In this document: piece by piece, positions 4,977 through 11,159 of the stretch
Position numbering within the stretch: the stretch's first letter is position 1
Layout: each line of letters starts with the position of its first letter
From: Candidatus Kaiserbacteria bacterium
GTDB lineage: Bacteria > Patescibacteriota > Minisyncoccia > Phycocordibacterales > UBA2100
DNA: 33,530 nt
Assembly: GCA_003164215.1 (NCBI GenBank)
Contig: PLSR01000003.1
Coordinates: 116,298 to 149,827 of the forward strand
Reading direction: 5' to 3'
Notes under the pieces: model-generated
Seen by the model: only the letters and a program-made list of their open reading frames with translations
Told to the model about the DNA's origin: nothing
Databases searched by the model: none
Program-made: the position numbers and the translations under genes

Positions 4977-6131
4977 CTATTGATATTGAATATAAGAGGG
5001 AGCGGGAATGAGATTCAGGACCTCGGCCGGAGTCATGAGACGCATCGAGGGCGGTTGCAGGTCCGCCTTGTAGAAAAGTTTGAACCCGGTGAACTGCACC
5101 GGCTCGTCGGCAATGACATACGTGTAGGTATTTATCTTCTTCGCTGGATATCCCCATCCGTCCATGTCCATAACGATCTGTACCTGTGGAAGCGGACGGA
5201 TAGCCTTGTAATTCGTCACCATGTCTTCGGTGAATCGGTGTATGACGAGGATCTTCGGCGGCAGGTTATATTCCGTCACGAGCGCGGCAAGATAGTTCGC
5301 GGCAAAATTTATGTCTGTCGCGTCGAGCGTGCCGATGACCGTTCCCGGCGGCCGGCCACTCGTCTGCATCGCGAATTCTGGATCGAGCGAAAGATGCACC
5401 TGCGGCATCATGAGATATTTTCGCAGCAGCGGCACCTCCGTCTCCACATTGCTCAGCCCGACCTGCACATCAAGAAAAACGAGCCCGTGAACTTGTGCCG
5501 CCATGTCGAGCGCCTTCTGTATTTGATCATCCGGCATTCGCAGACGATATTTGCCGTCGCTTCCCGGTGAACCCTGCGCGGTGACGGCAATGTAATCGAT
5601 CGCGGGAATGACCGGTGTCGTTGGATCGGCGGCCTGCCATCGCGCGGTCGTTGATGCGAGCATTTGTAAGACCTGTGCTTCAGGATATTCACCGAGAATG
5701 CCCATACCGGTCGAATAAAAATTCCCGTAGTACGCGACGATGCGATTGAATGGCAACAGTGCGCCCGGAAGCGGTAAGACTGCTTTCGCCGGCCACAGGC
5801 GATGGGGAACAGTAGAGGTGGCTTGTGGTGAGCTTGTCGAAACCATGAGCGGCGTTTTGTAGTTGGCGAGCGCGAGTAATTTCTTGTTGTAGGCGGCGAC
5901 ATCCAAGACCGGTGTAGTGCTCGAAATGGAGCTGCTTGTAGTCGTGCTGGTGCTTCCGTTTTGTCGCACGTATGCGACGGTTCCGGATCCGAGGAGCGCG
6001 AAGACCGTCGTATAGCCGACCATAAATAGCAACCCGCAGGCGATGCCGACACCGATCGCACTTATGATGAACCACGGACGCGTTTTTGCGACATCATTTC
6101 GCTTATGTTTTTGATCGTCAGCGTGACCCAT
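4977..6131 (-). CDS. Membrane-anchored extracellular protein, putative glycosidase-like TIM-barrel lipoprotein family
   Basis: Single N-terminal TM, Ser/Thr-rich linker, then YYGN..GILGEYP.....IPAIDYIAVTAQGSPGSDGKYRLRMPDDQIQ...GLVFLDVQ, resembling a conserved family of actinobacterial secreted proteins. Function unknown. Confidence 0.6.
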   Translation of the reverse strand: MGHADDQKHKRNDVAKTRPWFIISAIGVGIACGLLFMVGYTTVFALLGSGTVAYVRQNGSTSTTTSSSISSTTPVLDVAAYNKKLLALANYKTPLMVSTSSPQATSTVPHRLWPAKAVLPLPGALLPFNRIVAYYGNFYSTGMGILGEYPEAQVLQMLASTTARWQAADPTTPVIPAIDYIAVTAQGSPGSDGKYRLRMPDDQIQKALDMAAQVHGLVFLDVQVGLSNVETEVPLLRKYLMMPQVHLSLDPEFAMQTSGRPPGTVIGTLDATDINFAANYLAALVTEYNLPPKILVIHRFTEDMVTNYKAIRPLPQVQIVMDMDGWGYPAKKINTYTYVIADEPVQFTGFKLFYKADLQPPSMRLMTPAEVLNLIPAPSYIQYQ

Positions 6132-6188
6132 AGACAATATCATCGCATTGTACATTGCTTGCGCGAATTAGCGTAATTTATCTAGCAG

Positions 6189-6239: not shown

Positions 6240-7301
6240 CTAGAATCCGAAGAGATGCTGGAAGAATCCGCCGATGCCGCCCAGGAGACCACCAAGGAAG
6301 CCACCATGACCGCCCGATGTCGACGGAGTCGCCGATGTGGAAGCCGTCGGCGCCACACCCTGGTCAATGACCGAAGATGCGACGACAGCGTTGCCGTTCA
6401 CCGTCCCCTGGACGATGACCGCGTCACCCGTCGCGATCGCGGAGACCGTTGAGGTCGCGCCGCCCTTGTTAACGGTCGCATTGCTCGTATCAACAGTGTA
6501 CGTCACATTGCTCTTGTTGGTGACCGTAAGTGAAGTACCGCTGATCGAAGCTACGGTGCCACCGATGATCGGTTCGCCGTTGCCGGTGATATTAGCGACT
6601 GAGGCACCCGCACCTTTCGGTCCGCCGCCCATGCCACCCATTACACCATCATTGATCTTCGTCGCGGTAACACTCGTGCCGCTGACCGTTCCTTGCACCA
6701 TGACCGTGTCGCCTGTTGCAATCGCAGAGACGGTCGAAGCCGCACCTGCTTTCGTGACGGTCGCGTTCGTCGCATCGACCGTATAGGTCGTCGCAGTGCC
6801 GCCGTTCGGCCCGGCCTTAGATGTCACCGTAAGCGAGTTACCCGAAACCGATGCAACGGTGCCCATGACGCCGGAGCCTTTTCCGCCCATCATGCGTCCG
6901 CCGCCTGCACCACCCATGACACCGTCACGGATCGTCGTCGCAGTCACATTGGTGCCACTCACCGTGCCCTGCACCATGAGTGTGTCACCGTCAGCGATAG
7001 CTGAAACACTTGAGGCCGCACCCGCTTTCGTAACGGTCGCATTCGTCGCATCGACCGTGTAGGTCTTCGCAGTCGCATTAGATCCGAAACCTTTGCTGGT
7101 AACGGTGATCGTATCACCGCTGATAGAAGCGACTGTGCCGAATACGCCTGGCGCACGATGCGTACCGCCGCCCCAACTACCACCGGTAGGCGGAGTTGCC
7201 GTCGTCTGTGCGAAGGCAACGCCCCCGAGCGCGAGCGTGCTGATGATCGCCGCGCTTCCAATAATAGCCCCGAACTTCGTCCGGACTGATGAACTCTTCA
7301 T
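6240..7301 (-). CDS. Secreted protein with three DUF5666-type repeats
   Basis: Signal peptide; three copies of GTVASISG.(S/T)(L/I)TVT..(A)TYTVD..NATV.K.GA.S.VSAIA.GD.(V/L)(M/I)VQGTV.G..V.A; Gly-rich C-terminus. Confidence 0.85.
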   Translation of the reverse strand: MKSSSVRTKFGAIIGSAAIISTLALGGVAFAQTTATPPTGGSWGGGTHRAPGVFGTVASISGDTITVTSKGFGSNATAKTYTVDATNATVTKAGAASSVSAIADGDTLMVQGTVSGTNVTATTIRDGVMGGAGGGRMMGGKGSGVMGTVASVSGNSLTVTSKAGPNGGTATTYTVDATNATVTKAGAASTVSAIATGDTVMVQGTVSGTSVTATKINDGVMGGMGGGPKGAGASVANITGNGEPIIGGTVASISGTSLTVTNKSNVTYTVDTSNATVNKGGATSTVSAIATGDAVIVQGTVNGNAVVASSVIDQGVAPTASTSATPSTSGGHGGFLGGLLGGIGGFFQHLFGF

Positions 7302-7410: not shown

Positions 7411-7438
7411 TTGACATGTTTTCGAATGATTGTAATGT
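7411..7438 (+). promoter_or_regulatory. Candidate sigma70-type promoter for the EamA-like gene
   Basis: TTGACA (7411-7416), 16-nt spacer, TAATGT (7433-7438); SD-like GGGAG before ATG at 7467. Confidence 0.4.
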
Positions 7439-7466
7439 TGCGCCAGCGAACAACGGGAGCGCGCCA

Positions 7467-7898
7467 ATGCCACTATCACCTCTTGGGCTTTTCCTTGCCA
7501 CCGCTGCAGGACTCGTGTGGGCTGCAGCAGCTATCATCGGCCGCGTGTCCGGAGCGCCGTCACAAGCGATGCCGCTCATCATTTCGGCCGGCAGCTTCAT
7601 TGCATGCCTGCCGACGATCTTCTTCATCAACACCAGCAGCTTGCAAATGCGCGGCATCTCGATCGCGTTCGTCGCCGCATTGCTCAACGGCATCGGCATG
7701 GCCATAGGTTGGCAGGGACTGATCGGCGGAGCAGCGGAGGGCAAGTGGGAGCTCTCAGTCGTCATGCCAATCGCGTATTCCCTGCTCTTCCTCTTCATCG
7801 CGGCCGGAACAGCGATCTTCCTCAAAGAGCCGGTATCATTGAAGCAAGCGTCAGGAATGTTGCTCGCCTGCGTGGCGATCTATCTCATGCGCGGCTGA
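7467..7898 (+). CDS. EamA/DMT-like small multidrug-type transporter
   Basis: Hydrophobic ~143-aa protein ending in FLKEPVSLKQASGMLLACVAIYLM, typical of an EamA repeat; SD gggag before MPLSPLG. Confidence 0.7.
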   Translation: MPLSPLGLFLATAAGLVWAAAAIIGRVSGAPSQAMPLIISAGSFIACLPTIFFINTSSLQMRGISIAFVAALLNGIGMAIGWQGLIGGAAEGKWELSVVMPIAYSLLFLFIAAGTAIFLKEPVSLKQASGMLLACVAIYLMRG

Positions 7899-7951: not shown

Positions 7952-8172
7952 GACTTTCTGTAAATTTGGAATATAAGTCTGCGTTGCATTTTTCTACGTT
8001 TTTCTGTGCAAACCGAACGGAAGTTTGGGCGGAAATTGGAACCATTTTATCCTACGAACGCTATTAATCCTGGAAATTCTTAAGTGCCGGAGAATTTGCT
8101 TTTTTGCCAAAATATGTCATATTCAAGCCTGTTGCAGTTTTGTTTCTGCGACTACAGATCGGGAGAAGTTCA

Positions 8173-8982
8173 ATGACATTACTCAGTAGGACCGGCGAGA
8201 TGACCATCGCCGAACTCGTTCGTCCCATTGTGACGGACGGAAAAATCGCCTACGTCGGATCGATCACGATCGATGAGGACGCACTCGACGCCGCCGGCAT
8301 CCTGCCGTGCGAAATGGTCTACATCGACGACGCGGACCGAAAAGGCCCGCCGTGGCGCACCTACACCTTGGCCGGCACGCGCGGCAAGGGCGACATCGTC
8401 AATAATGGGCCTCCGGCGTATCACTTCGCCGAGGGTGACCACGTCACCATCCGCGCGGCAGCACAAATAGCTTACGAGGACATGGCGCAGGTCGCCGGGA
8501 TGCACACGAAGGTGTTCTTCAAGCAGGCCGCCGGCGCACCCAATCGCGTTATCGCGCCGACACATCAGTTGGTGTTGCCGCCGAAACATTGGCGGAAGAT
8601 GTGCACCTCGAAGCTTCACCGGGCTCGCGTTACCAAAGCGTCCAAGAACGGCCCGGAGGCGTTGATTGTGGATGGCGACATTCTCGAGGCGGCCGGTTTC
8701 CAGGCCGGACTCGAGGTGCAGTTCACCAGTCTGCGCGATGGCGTGCTGCGCCGCACTTCAATGCAAGCGGGCCCACGCGGCACCGGCGCGGTCGAAGTCT
8801 ACGGCTCCGGCGCGTGGCATATCGAGGTCGGCACACTTCTGATCACGCTCGCCGAAGAATGGCTCCCGTACGAAGACGCGGTCAAGAACACCGAACCGCG
8901 CGTGGTCTTCTTCGATGAGTCGATCACGGGTCGCAACGTCATCCGGCACGAGATGACCAAGGTTGGCTGGCGTCCATCCTGA
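8173..8982 (+). CDS. Tandem-fused aspartate 1-decarboxylase (PanD)-like protein
   Basis: First half: AYVGSITIDEDALDAAGILPCEMV...WRTYTLAGTRGKGDIVNNGPPA...EGDHVTI; second half: SKLHRARVT...GDILEAAGFQAGLEV...GTGAVEVYGSGAWHIEVGTLLITLAEEWLPYEDA....PRVVFFDE. Both align by eye to PanD. SD gggagaag before ATG at 8173. Confidence 0.8.
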   Translation: MTLLSRTGEMTIAELVRPIVTDGKIAYVGSITIDEDALDAAGILPCEMVYIDDADRKGPPWRTYTLAGTRGKGDIVNNGPPAYHFAEGDHVTIRAAAQIAYEDMAQVAGMHTKVFFKQAAGAPNRVIAPTHQLVLPPKHWRKMCTSKLHRARVTKASKNGPEALIVDGDILEAAGFQAGLEVQFTSLRDGVLRRTSMQAGPRGTGAVEVYGSGAWHIEVGTLLITLAEEWLPYEDAVKNTEPRVVFFDESITGRNVIRHEMTKVGWRPS

Positions 8983-8996
8983 CAACTTGCTCTATG

Positions 8997-9032
8997 GCGC
9001 CGCGACCTCCAGGTCGCGGCGCATCTTTTTTT
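8997..9032 (+). terminator. Rho-independent terminator
   Basis: gcgccgcgacc-tcca-ggtcgcggcgc-a-tcttttttt, 11-bp perfect stem. Confidence 0.92.
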
Positions 9033-9036
9033 AAAA

Positions 9037-10068
9037 TTAAACTCTCCGGACGATGCAGAACGGCGTCATTTCGTCGGATTGACCGAGCGGGTTGTCGCGA
9101 AAGAGTTTGCCGATGAAAGATTCTGAAATTGCGTTTGAAGATTTCCCTAAACTGAATGCGCCGCGATAATTCGCGTCGAGAATGACGACATCACTTACGC
9201 CAAGCTTTTCTTTGATCTTCCGCGCGGCCCCAGACGGATCATTCGGAGCGAGCTTCACCGAGTGCGCATATTCGAGAATGAGGAACGACATCGGACAGTC
9301 GATCGATTTCGCGCGCAAGCCGCAGATGCGATAGAAAAGTCCACGAATGCCGAAGGGGCGCGTGATCGCCGAAACGAGTGCCGCGAAGATTATGCGCGGA
9401 TATCCCGCCTCATCAATGAACGCCTGCATCGCGATAGCCGTACCGTGACCGAAGCCTTTGAAATCGTTCGAACCGTAATTATTGCCAACGTTCTTTGCGA
9501 AAAGATGCGCAAGCCATGATGGTTTGAGCGTGCTCATGTCGACGACTCTGCCCTGCGTGATCGTGAGCGCTTTTTCGCTAATATACAACGTGTCATCGGA
9601 TTTTATATACGGCTTCACATAATCGTCGAGTAGCGGCTGGATATCGGTATCTTGCATCGTAATGAGGCGCGTGCGCACCGGCAGACGCTGATACTTTACT
9701 CCGTCTACGTCGATGACTATCTCCTTGCCCGGATTCGGAATAAATTCGCCCGACGGTGCTCGCGGCGCCATTGGCGGAGGCGGGAACGAGACTTCTTCTC
9801 CGCGGAAAAGCGCGGACAATTTTTCAACTGTCTCCCGAATGCTTGCGGGATCTTCACCCATCTTCGCGCGCGAACGCAAAAGCTCTGTCACTTCCATATA
9901 CAAAATATGCGCCTCATCTATGCGTGATTTCGAAAATGTCGCTTCGATCGGTGCCGCACTATCACCAACCGCCTGCAATGTTGCGCCACCGTCTTGTTGT
10001 GGCACATACAAAACCGTGAGCCCGGTCTTATCCTTCATTTCTGCGTAGGTAATTGATTGTTCTTGCAT
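9037..10068 (-). CDS. Coenzyme F420-0:L-glutamate ligase (CofE)-like protein with N-terminal extension
   Basis: YQRLPVRTRLITMQDTDIQPLLDDYVKPYIKSDDTLYISEKALTITQGRVV resembles the CofE N-terminal fold; ~120-aa extra N-terminus with Pro-rich linker. Start MQEQSIT; TACAAT-8nt-ATG. Confidence 0.55.
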   Translation of the reverse strand: MQEQSITYAEMKDKTGLTVLYVPQQDGGATLQAVGDSAAPIEATFSKSRIDEAHILYMEVTELLRSRAKMGEDPASIRETVEKLSALFRGEEVSFPPPPMAPRAPSGEFIPNPGKEIVIDVDGVKYQRLPVRTRLITMQDTDIQPLLDDYVKPYIKSDDTLYISEKALTITQGRVVDMSTLKPSWLAHLFAKNVGNNYGSNDFKGFGHGTAIAMQAFIDEAGYPRIIFAALVSAITRPFGIRGLFYRICGLRAKSIDCPMSFLILEYAHSVKLAPNDPSGAARKIKEKLGVSDVVILDANYRGAFSLGKSSNAISESFIGKLFRDNPLGQSDEMTPFCIVRRV

Positions 10069-10099
10069 GAATTTGGATTGTAACATATGAAAATAAAGC

Positions 10100-10126
10100 G
10101 GCCCGGCTGCGCGATGCAGTCGGGCC
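10100..10126 (-). terminator. Terminator of the PLP-enzyme gene
   Basis: ggcccggctgc-gcgat-gcagtcgggcc (11 bp including one G-T), followed on the minus strand by GCTTTATTTTC. Confidence 0.8.
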
Positions 10127-10136
10127 ACGAGGCCGG

Positions 10137-11159
10137 TTATTTTCCGGCATTGATCACCTCGATAATCCGCTCCACAGAGATGTCCCGGATCTCGAAGTCT
10201 TCCACACCGTGAAGGGCGGTTTTGGCGACCTCTTGATACAGGGTCATCGCATCCGGGAACATGATCCCCACACGGAGAATGCGGGACTGATCGAACTCGT
10301 GCCAGTGTTCCGCGAGGAATTTCAACGCGCCGGCGTACGTCATCGAGCCGGTCGGCCCGACATCCAGCTGGCGAAGTTTCTCCCCTAACGCGGCAGCTGC
10401 GACGAACGCTGCGCGCCGACCGATCTTGATCGGCGGCCCGAATTCATCCAACGCATCTTCACCGACCACTTCTTTGATGCTCGCGACGGTACGTGCGGCC
10501 GGTATCTCCTGGCCGTCTTCGCAGACGACCGGGATAACTTTAGTCGCAAGTCCGTGAGCATCCGCATACCACTTGATGCCGCGTGCGGTGCCCATTGTTC
10601 CACAAGGAACAAAGACGATGTCGAAATAGCCATTTTGCGGCGCGAACAGTTGCGCTGCAGTGTAGTCGCGATGTCCGAGTGCATTGGCGGGATTCTTGTA
10701 CTGATTGGTATTGAACCCATCCAATGCGATCGCCAATTGCTCCGCCTCGACCTGTGTCGACTCCGAGGTGAGCAGCACCTTGGCAAGTCCGCGCTGCATT
10801 GCGACCCGGCTCGATTTTGCGGTGATCGTGTCGGCCTTCATGATCGTCCAGCACCGCAATCCAAGCGGCCTGCACATTTCCGCAAGCTTGAACCCGGTTT
10901 GTCCGCTCGATGCCGCGAATACCGGAGTACCTTCGCGAATGACCTCGTTGATGATGCCCTGTTCGAGCATCGCGAACACCGGAGCATGCTTGTTATACGA
11001 TCCGGTGCCATACATCACGGCCGCTCGCATCTCGACACCGGAAAAGGTATTGAGATTTTTGCCGAACGGTTTAGTCACGTGGACGAGATCGAACTTGGAT
11101 GGATGGAATTCACCCCTCAATTGTTCGAGGGCCCGTTCTTTCCATGGAACTTGGGTCAT
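10137..11159 (-). CDS. Fold-type II PLP-dependent enzyme (cysteine synthase/CBS-like)
   Basis: GSYNKHAPVFAML (putative PLP lysine), ASSGQTGFKLAEMCRPLG (SGNTG-like phosphate loop), FVPCGTMGTARGIKWY (Gly-rich loop), C-terminal PTGSMTYAGALKFL. Confidence 0.78.
   Translation of the reverse strand: MTQVPWKERALEQLRGEFHPSKFDLVHVTKPFGKNLNTFSGVEMRAAVMYGTGSYNKHAPVFAMLEQGIINEVIREGTPVFAASSGQTGFKLAEMCRPLGLRCWTIMKADTITAKSSRVAMQRGLAKVLLTSESTQVEAEQLAIALDGFNTNQYKNPANALGHRDYTAAQLFAPQNGYFDIVFVPCGTMGTARGIKWYADAHGLATKVIPVVCEDGQEIPAARTVASIKEVVGEDALDEFGPPIKIGRRAAFVAAAALGEKLRQLDVGPTGSMTYAGALKFLAEHWHEFDQSRILRVGIMFPDAMTLYQEVAKTALHGVEDFEIRDISVERIIEVINAGK

Follow-up and report, generated by a model that had tools for sequence, protein, structure and literature searches.

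A tandem PanD-family protein from a Kaiserbacteria genome as a probable built-in pseudo-heterodimer

Bacterial PanD is formed from chains of ∼126 residues that assemble into homotetramers, and the active site is shared between two of the subunits. Arg54, one of the residues donated by the partner subunit, binds the side-chain carboxylate of aspartate. In the site as described, one chain provides Pyr25, Thr57, and Tyr58, and the other subunit of the dimer contributes Lys9* and Arg54* (PMC3314653). The structure of PanD from Mycobacterium tuberculosis (Mtb) confirms the origin of Arg54* in the neighboring subunit (PMC6969166), and in the Bacillus subtilis enzyme the strands of the pocket region that face the adjacent subunit comprise residues 2 to 14, 41 to 48, 52 to 59, and 82 to 94 (PMC11808261). 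With an active site of this kind, a fused pair of PanD domains in which each retains only the residues of its own side is a natural experiment in the transition from symmetric to asymmetric enzymes. Eukaryotic AdoMetDC is regarded as a duplicated and fused form of the bacterial-type AdoMetDC. In trypanosomes, AdoMetDC and its prozyme present a pyruvoyl decarboxylase working together with a catalytically dead paralogue (PMC5201418).

The window, the whole stretch of 33,530 nucleotides of Candidatus Kaiserbacteria DNA analyzed here, encodes a PanD-family protein of 269 residues with two domains in one chain (Table 1), a format that departs from the single-domain chains of the known enzyme. PF02261 matches the open reading frame twice, each time above the Pfam cutoff of 25 bits, and the whole protein scores 122.9 bits. 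TIGR00223 gives 111.1 bits against a cutoff of 106, drawn from two stretches of the protein. Among PDB chains, phmmer matches are to PanDs only and come from both halves. The tandem PanD fusion read from the sequence in the original prediction is thus borne out. The protein is the sole PanD encoded in the host genome (1.0 Mb, 93.7% complete). The GC content by codon position is strongly periodic and similar in the two halves (0.62/0.46/0.78 in half 1 and 0.64/0.48/0.77 in half 2), as in a maintained coding sequence. Of the flanking signals first proposed, a Shine-Dalgarno-like element and a hairpin followed by a T-run are both present; hairpins overall are not above shuffled sequences, with two sites found against 1.8 expected. 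Just upstream, at 7416 to 7898 (+), lies a 160-residue open reading frame with no Pfam match, by eye part of an EamA-type transporter and possibly truncated.

Table 1. Coordinates of the tandem panD gene, its residues of interest, and neighboring features in the window
Feature	Position	Strand	Basis or remark
Tandem PanD open reading frame	8173..8982	+	269 aa + stop; PF02261 twice
Half 1, PanD domain with pyruvoyl-side residues	8173..8526 (residues 1-118)	+	PF02261, 72.3 bits; AF2; Foldseek
Linker, approximate	8527..8580 (residues 119-136)	+	Alignment
Half 2, PanD domain with subunit-donated residues, no cleavage site	8581..8979 (residues 137-269)	+	PF02261, 54 bits; AF2; Foldseek
Shine-Dalgarno-like GGGAGA	8161..8166	+	6 nt before ATG at 8173; sequence read directly
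Terminator-like hairpin, 11 pairs (10 GC), then T-run	8997..9032	+	Hairpin scan and sequence
Gly29-Ser30, predicted self-cleavage/pyruvoyl site (E. coli Gly24-Ser25)	8257..8262	+	Alignment
Glu14 of half 1, in place of the lost Lys9	8212..8214	+	Lys in 94/94 single-domain PanDs
Thr63-Tyr64 (E. coli Thr57-Tyr58), kept in half 1	8359..8364	+	Alignment
Asn78 (E. coli Asn72), kept in half 1	8404..8406	+	Alignment
Lys147, Leu148, His149 (E. coli Lys9-Leu-His11), kept in half 2	8611..8619	+	Alignment
Glu162-Ala163 in place of Gly24-Ser25, half 2 cleavage site lost	8656..8661	+	Alignment
CofE-like (F420 ligase family) gene	9037..10128	-	PF01996, 28.7 bits (cutoff 25); adjoins panD in most relatives
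PLP-dependent fold-type II enzyme (SbnA/CysK-like)	10137..11159	-	PF00291, 72.7 bits; adjoins panD in most relatives
DUF5666 protein, left-hand synteny marker common with G034	6240..7301	-	PF18914; 73% identical in L004

Each half is predicted to adopt the double-psi beta-barrel fold of PanD, the second half included. In an AlphaFold2 (AF2) model of the tandem built with 26 single-domain relatives, all aligning to half 1, the pLDDT of half 1 is mostly above 90, and its top Foldseek matches are the PanD structures of E. coli and Mtb, with TMt values of 0.84 to 0.86. Half 2 falls below 50 in this model, an uninformative value since the alignment covered half 1 only. Folded with its own alignment, half 2 reaches a pLDDT of 86.4 and a pTM of 0.78, and its top Foldseek matches are again PanDs, including that of E. 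coli (TMt of 0.89 to 0.95).

An alignment of the two halves with E. coli PanD and 94 single-domain PanDs allows the active-site residues to be accounted for half by half. Lys9, Tyr22, Gly24, Ser25, Thr57, Tyr58, Asn72, and Gly73 occur in all 94 single-domain proteins and His11 in 93; the invariance of Tyr22, Gly24, Ser25, Asn72, and Gly73 is partly due to selection because these residues lie inside the search patterns used, while Lys9, His11, Thr57, and Tyr58 lie outside the patterns that gathered the proteins. Half 1 retains Tyr22, Gly24, Ser25, Thr57, Tyr58, and Asn72 but carries glutamate at position 9 and valine at position 11. Half 2 retains Lys9, His11, and Arg12 together with Thr57; it shows Glu-Ala in place of Gly-Ser, glycine at Tyr22, serine at Tyr58, and tyrosine at Asn72. 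The residues first assigned by eye to both halves therefore hold on the larger alignment. That reading had overlooked the loss of His11 in half 1, the retention of Thr57 and loss of Tyr22 in half 2, and the absence from both halves of Arg54, which is present in 83 of the 94 single-domain PanDs and is replaced by proline in half 1 and leucine in half 2.

The division of these residues between the halves follows the side of the subunit interface on which they act. Sixty-one columns are conserved in at least 12 of the 14 closest single-domain relatives; 48 of them are retained by at least one half, 18 by half 1 alone and 13 by half 2 alone. The pyruvoyl-side columns fall 9:0 to half 1, among them Tyr22, Gly24-Ser25, Tyr58, Asn72, and Pro74-75. 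The neighbor-side columns (9, 11, 47, 86, and 88), all lost from half 1, fall 5:0 to half 2, the placing of 11, 47, 86, and 88 resting partly on interface-facing strands rather than on measured distances. There is no crossover between the two classes (Fisher p = 0.0005), a value that is indicative only because the split was made post hoc, the classes having been compiled from the cited papers after the residue table was seen. Since Lys9 and Arg54 come from the neighboring subunit in the published structures, each pair of domains should retain one composite site and no more, and the tandem is most likely to be a pseudo-heterodimer in which the number of active sites is halved. It suggests, without mutagenesis, which PanD residue acts from which side.

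The reading favored here, and considered likely, is that of a fused PanD-family decarboxylase whose two domains would form a built-in pseudo-heterodimer with one composite site, within a subfamily that lacks Arg54 and does not appear tied to pantothenate. We infer heterodimer folding, self-cleavage, and catalysis. Self-cleavage of half 1 at Gly29-Ser30 would generate the pyruvoyl group, with Tyr27, Thr63, Tyr64, Asn78, and the Pro-Pro loop also coming from this half. Half 2, unable to cleave, would pack against half 1, donate Lys147 and His149, and form the wall of the pocket with positions 47, 54, 86, and 88. The composite site of half 1 pyruvoyl and half 2 donors would be complete and the reciprocal site dead, so that a dimer of tandems would be left with two functional sites out of four. 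Since half 1 has also lost other neighbor-facing residues, folding into a homotetramer should not be taken for granted. Among the observations against the proposal, the tandem is a single example in everything searched, and both of its halves sit on very long branches.

The closest relatives of both halves belong to a subfamily of PanDs with tryptophan at position 55, found in small-genome bacteria of the Patescibacteria type. The 14 single-domain members (L003 to L005, L008, L017, L021 to L023, L025, L027, L108 to L110, and L114) have phenylalanine, leucine, serine, or threonine at position 54 and usually threonine at 47 and Pro-Pro at 74-75, with the other residues kept. These proteins form one clade together with half 1 and half 2 (support 98/99.9). 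Half 1 shows the Trp55 and Pro-Pro of the subfamily, and half 2 shows its Thr47 and a leucine at position 54; each half thus holds the subfamily's version of its own interface side. The loss of Arg54 appears to predate the tandem and to be already present in the parent subfamily, so the tandem would have arisen within a PanD group already without this residue. The absence of Arg54 from both halves would count against aspartate decarboxylation, and together with the absence of Trp55 from half 2 it means that the pocket differs even from that of its own subfamily.

The original prediction derived the tandem from a duplication, and this part goes beyond what the sequences show. The halves are only 27% identical, and each is closer to an outside single-domain PanD (half 1 to L021 with 53% identity and half 2 to L017 with 39%) than to the other half. 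A fusion of two separate panD paralogues, instead of an internal duplication, is a reasonable possibility, though not the expected outcome. It concerns the origin only and is compatible with the same pseudo-heterodimer function. Besides the identities, a paralogue fusion is favored by the finding that just one aligned derived residue is common to both halves and absent from the subfamily. Against it, no sampled genome carries two Trp55-type panD genes, both halves fall in one clade, and a tree with the two as sisters is not rejected, though not supported either (p-AU 0.20). The last residues of half 2 are GWRPS, and the single PanDs L021, L022, L025, L109, L124, and L126 likewise finish with GWRP plus one residue, which may hint at where half 2 came from.

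Contrary to the first description of the gene as standing alone, the tandem lies in a conserved neighborhood that includes genes for a PLP enzyme and a CofE-like ligase. In the same-genus genome G034, too, the genes run in the order VIT1, DedA-like, PLP enzyme, CofE-like, panD, DUF5666, and then the homologue of the gene at 4977 to 6155; the panD in the slot occupied here by the tandem is single there. In G034, a gene resembling a REP-type transposase by eye (L102:9423-10076) lies between the CofE-like gene and panD. The CofE-like proteins of the two loci are 79% identical, while the PLP enzyme and its positional counterpart (L102:7251-8288) share only 39%; the PLP enzyme beside the tandem appears either to have diverged quickly in step with panD or to be a replacement. 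The CofE-like protein has an N-terminal extension of ∼120 residues that is at least partly present in L102 and L122 but not in other relatives. A gene for the PLP enzyme, the CofE-like protein, or both is found close to panD at 16 of the 18 other Trp55-type loci and at none of the 17 Arg54-type loci of the same phylum (Fisher p = 4e-8), several of the latter having a flank of just 1.5 kb, which lowers the chance of a neighbor match. The PLP gene was found at none of the PanD loci of other phyla within the flanks examined. The aligned PLP enzymes retain their catalytic PLP lysine.

Neither PanC (PF02569) nor CoaBC (PF04127) was found in ten genomes with a Trp55-type PanD, that of the tandem included, with control searches positive in 9 and 14 of 14. 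The lack of pantothenate genes first noted around the tandem therefore holds and extends beyond the locus, to this whole genome and nine others. With both genes absent from the ten genomes, the Trp55-type PanD probably has no part in making pantothenate or CoA, and the subfamily has most likely been neofunctionalized. A decarboxylase without the aspartate-binding arginine, hosts without the CoA pathway, and two linked enzyme genes point to a hitherto unknown small-molecule pathway. One tentative and rather doubtful sketch has the tandem working as a pseudo-heterodimeric pyruvoyl decarboxylase of an amino acid other than aspartate. Here, the SbnA/CysK-like PLP enzyme might make a beta-substituted amino acid, which the Arg54-less PanD could decarboxylate, followed by the joining of the resulting amine to a carboxylate by the CofE-like ligase; small-genome bacteria would then possess a pathway that is so far undescribed.

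No second tandem was found in 52 genomes of the same genus, 380 of the phylum, 384 of the class, and 397 of the order, nor in 327 genomes (170 with a PanD) from the phylum of an Actinomycetota locus. Overall, 1,626 genome searches, with a query that was partly the family and partly the protein and with some genomes repeated, returned no further example; this rarity is a result from a sample and no proof of uniqueness. Genome contigs searched with the tandem protein likewise gave no other tandem, and in an alignment search of genome contigs the best 80 of 585 relatives are all single-domain. Viral contigs contain single PanDs only, and in phages and plasmids the PanDs are single-domain, with both halves aligning to one place. 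Two candidates were discarded: L020, which contains stops, is a chance match, and G1385, read past a stop, is a single-domain PanD. Among open-licence papers, none was found that deals with a tandem PanD or with the PanDs of candidate phyla. In these searches no two-domain homologue with an intact Gly-Ser in both halves came to light; together with the PanD-like model of half 2 and the interface-side split, this leaves the division of labor and the halved number of sites proposed for the tandem standing after the tests run.

The long branches of both halves are also what would be expected of a decaying gene, in which the tandem would have drifted after losing its original role, the complementary pattern would be partly luck, and the protein would be inactive. 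In the same direction point the missing Arg54, the low identity of the PLP neighbor compared with that of the CofE-like neighbor, and the scarcity of PanD in the genus, where a match occurs in 6 of 52 genomes and is spurious in one of these. This explanation is unlikely in view of the intact frame of 807 nt, the periodic codon-position GC, the Pfam scores of both halves, and the clean partition of the conserved columns. A noncatalytic or regulatory role, in which half 1 would retain cleavage or ligand binding and the tandem would act as a sensor or scaffold, would agree with the altered pocket residues 54 and 55, the absent CoA pathway, and the unusual neighbors. It is decidedly improbable, as half 1 retains all known self-cleavage and proton-transfer residues and half 2 retains Lys9 and His11, a partition needless for a pure binder. 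An assembly or binning artifact, suggested by the draft state of the genome (28 contigs) and the lack of a second example, can practically be set aside, as synteny on both flanks agrees with the same-genus genome, the frame is continuous, and a longest DNA match of 11 bp between the halves shows that the tandem is not a misassembled repeat.

Among the known systems close to the pseudo-heterodimer proposed here are the single-domain Trp55 PanDs without Arg54, with which it shares a sequence clade, synteny, the PLP-enzyme and CofE-like neighbors, and a residue other than arginine at position 54; these proteins differ in having one domain and a full catalytic set per chain. The tandem resembles bacterial PanD in general (PF02261/TIGR00223; E. 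coli 1ppy and Mtb 2c45) in the fold of both halves, in the Gly-Ser, Thr57, Tyr58, and Asn72 of half 1, and in the Lys9 and His11 of half 2. It is set apart by two domains per chain with complementary losses, the lack of Arg54, and a genome without PanC or CoaBC. Trypanosome AdoMetDC with its prozyme offers a parallel in the pairing of an active pyruvoyl decarboxylase with a dead paralogue, but has another fold and two separate genes and is activated by a conformational switch, in contrast to the residue donation presumed for the tandem. Eukaryotic AdoMetDC differs in fold and substrate and stems from an independent event, yet is alike in the duplication and fusion of a pyruvoyl decarboxylase of which only one half is processed.
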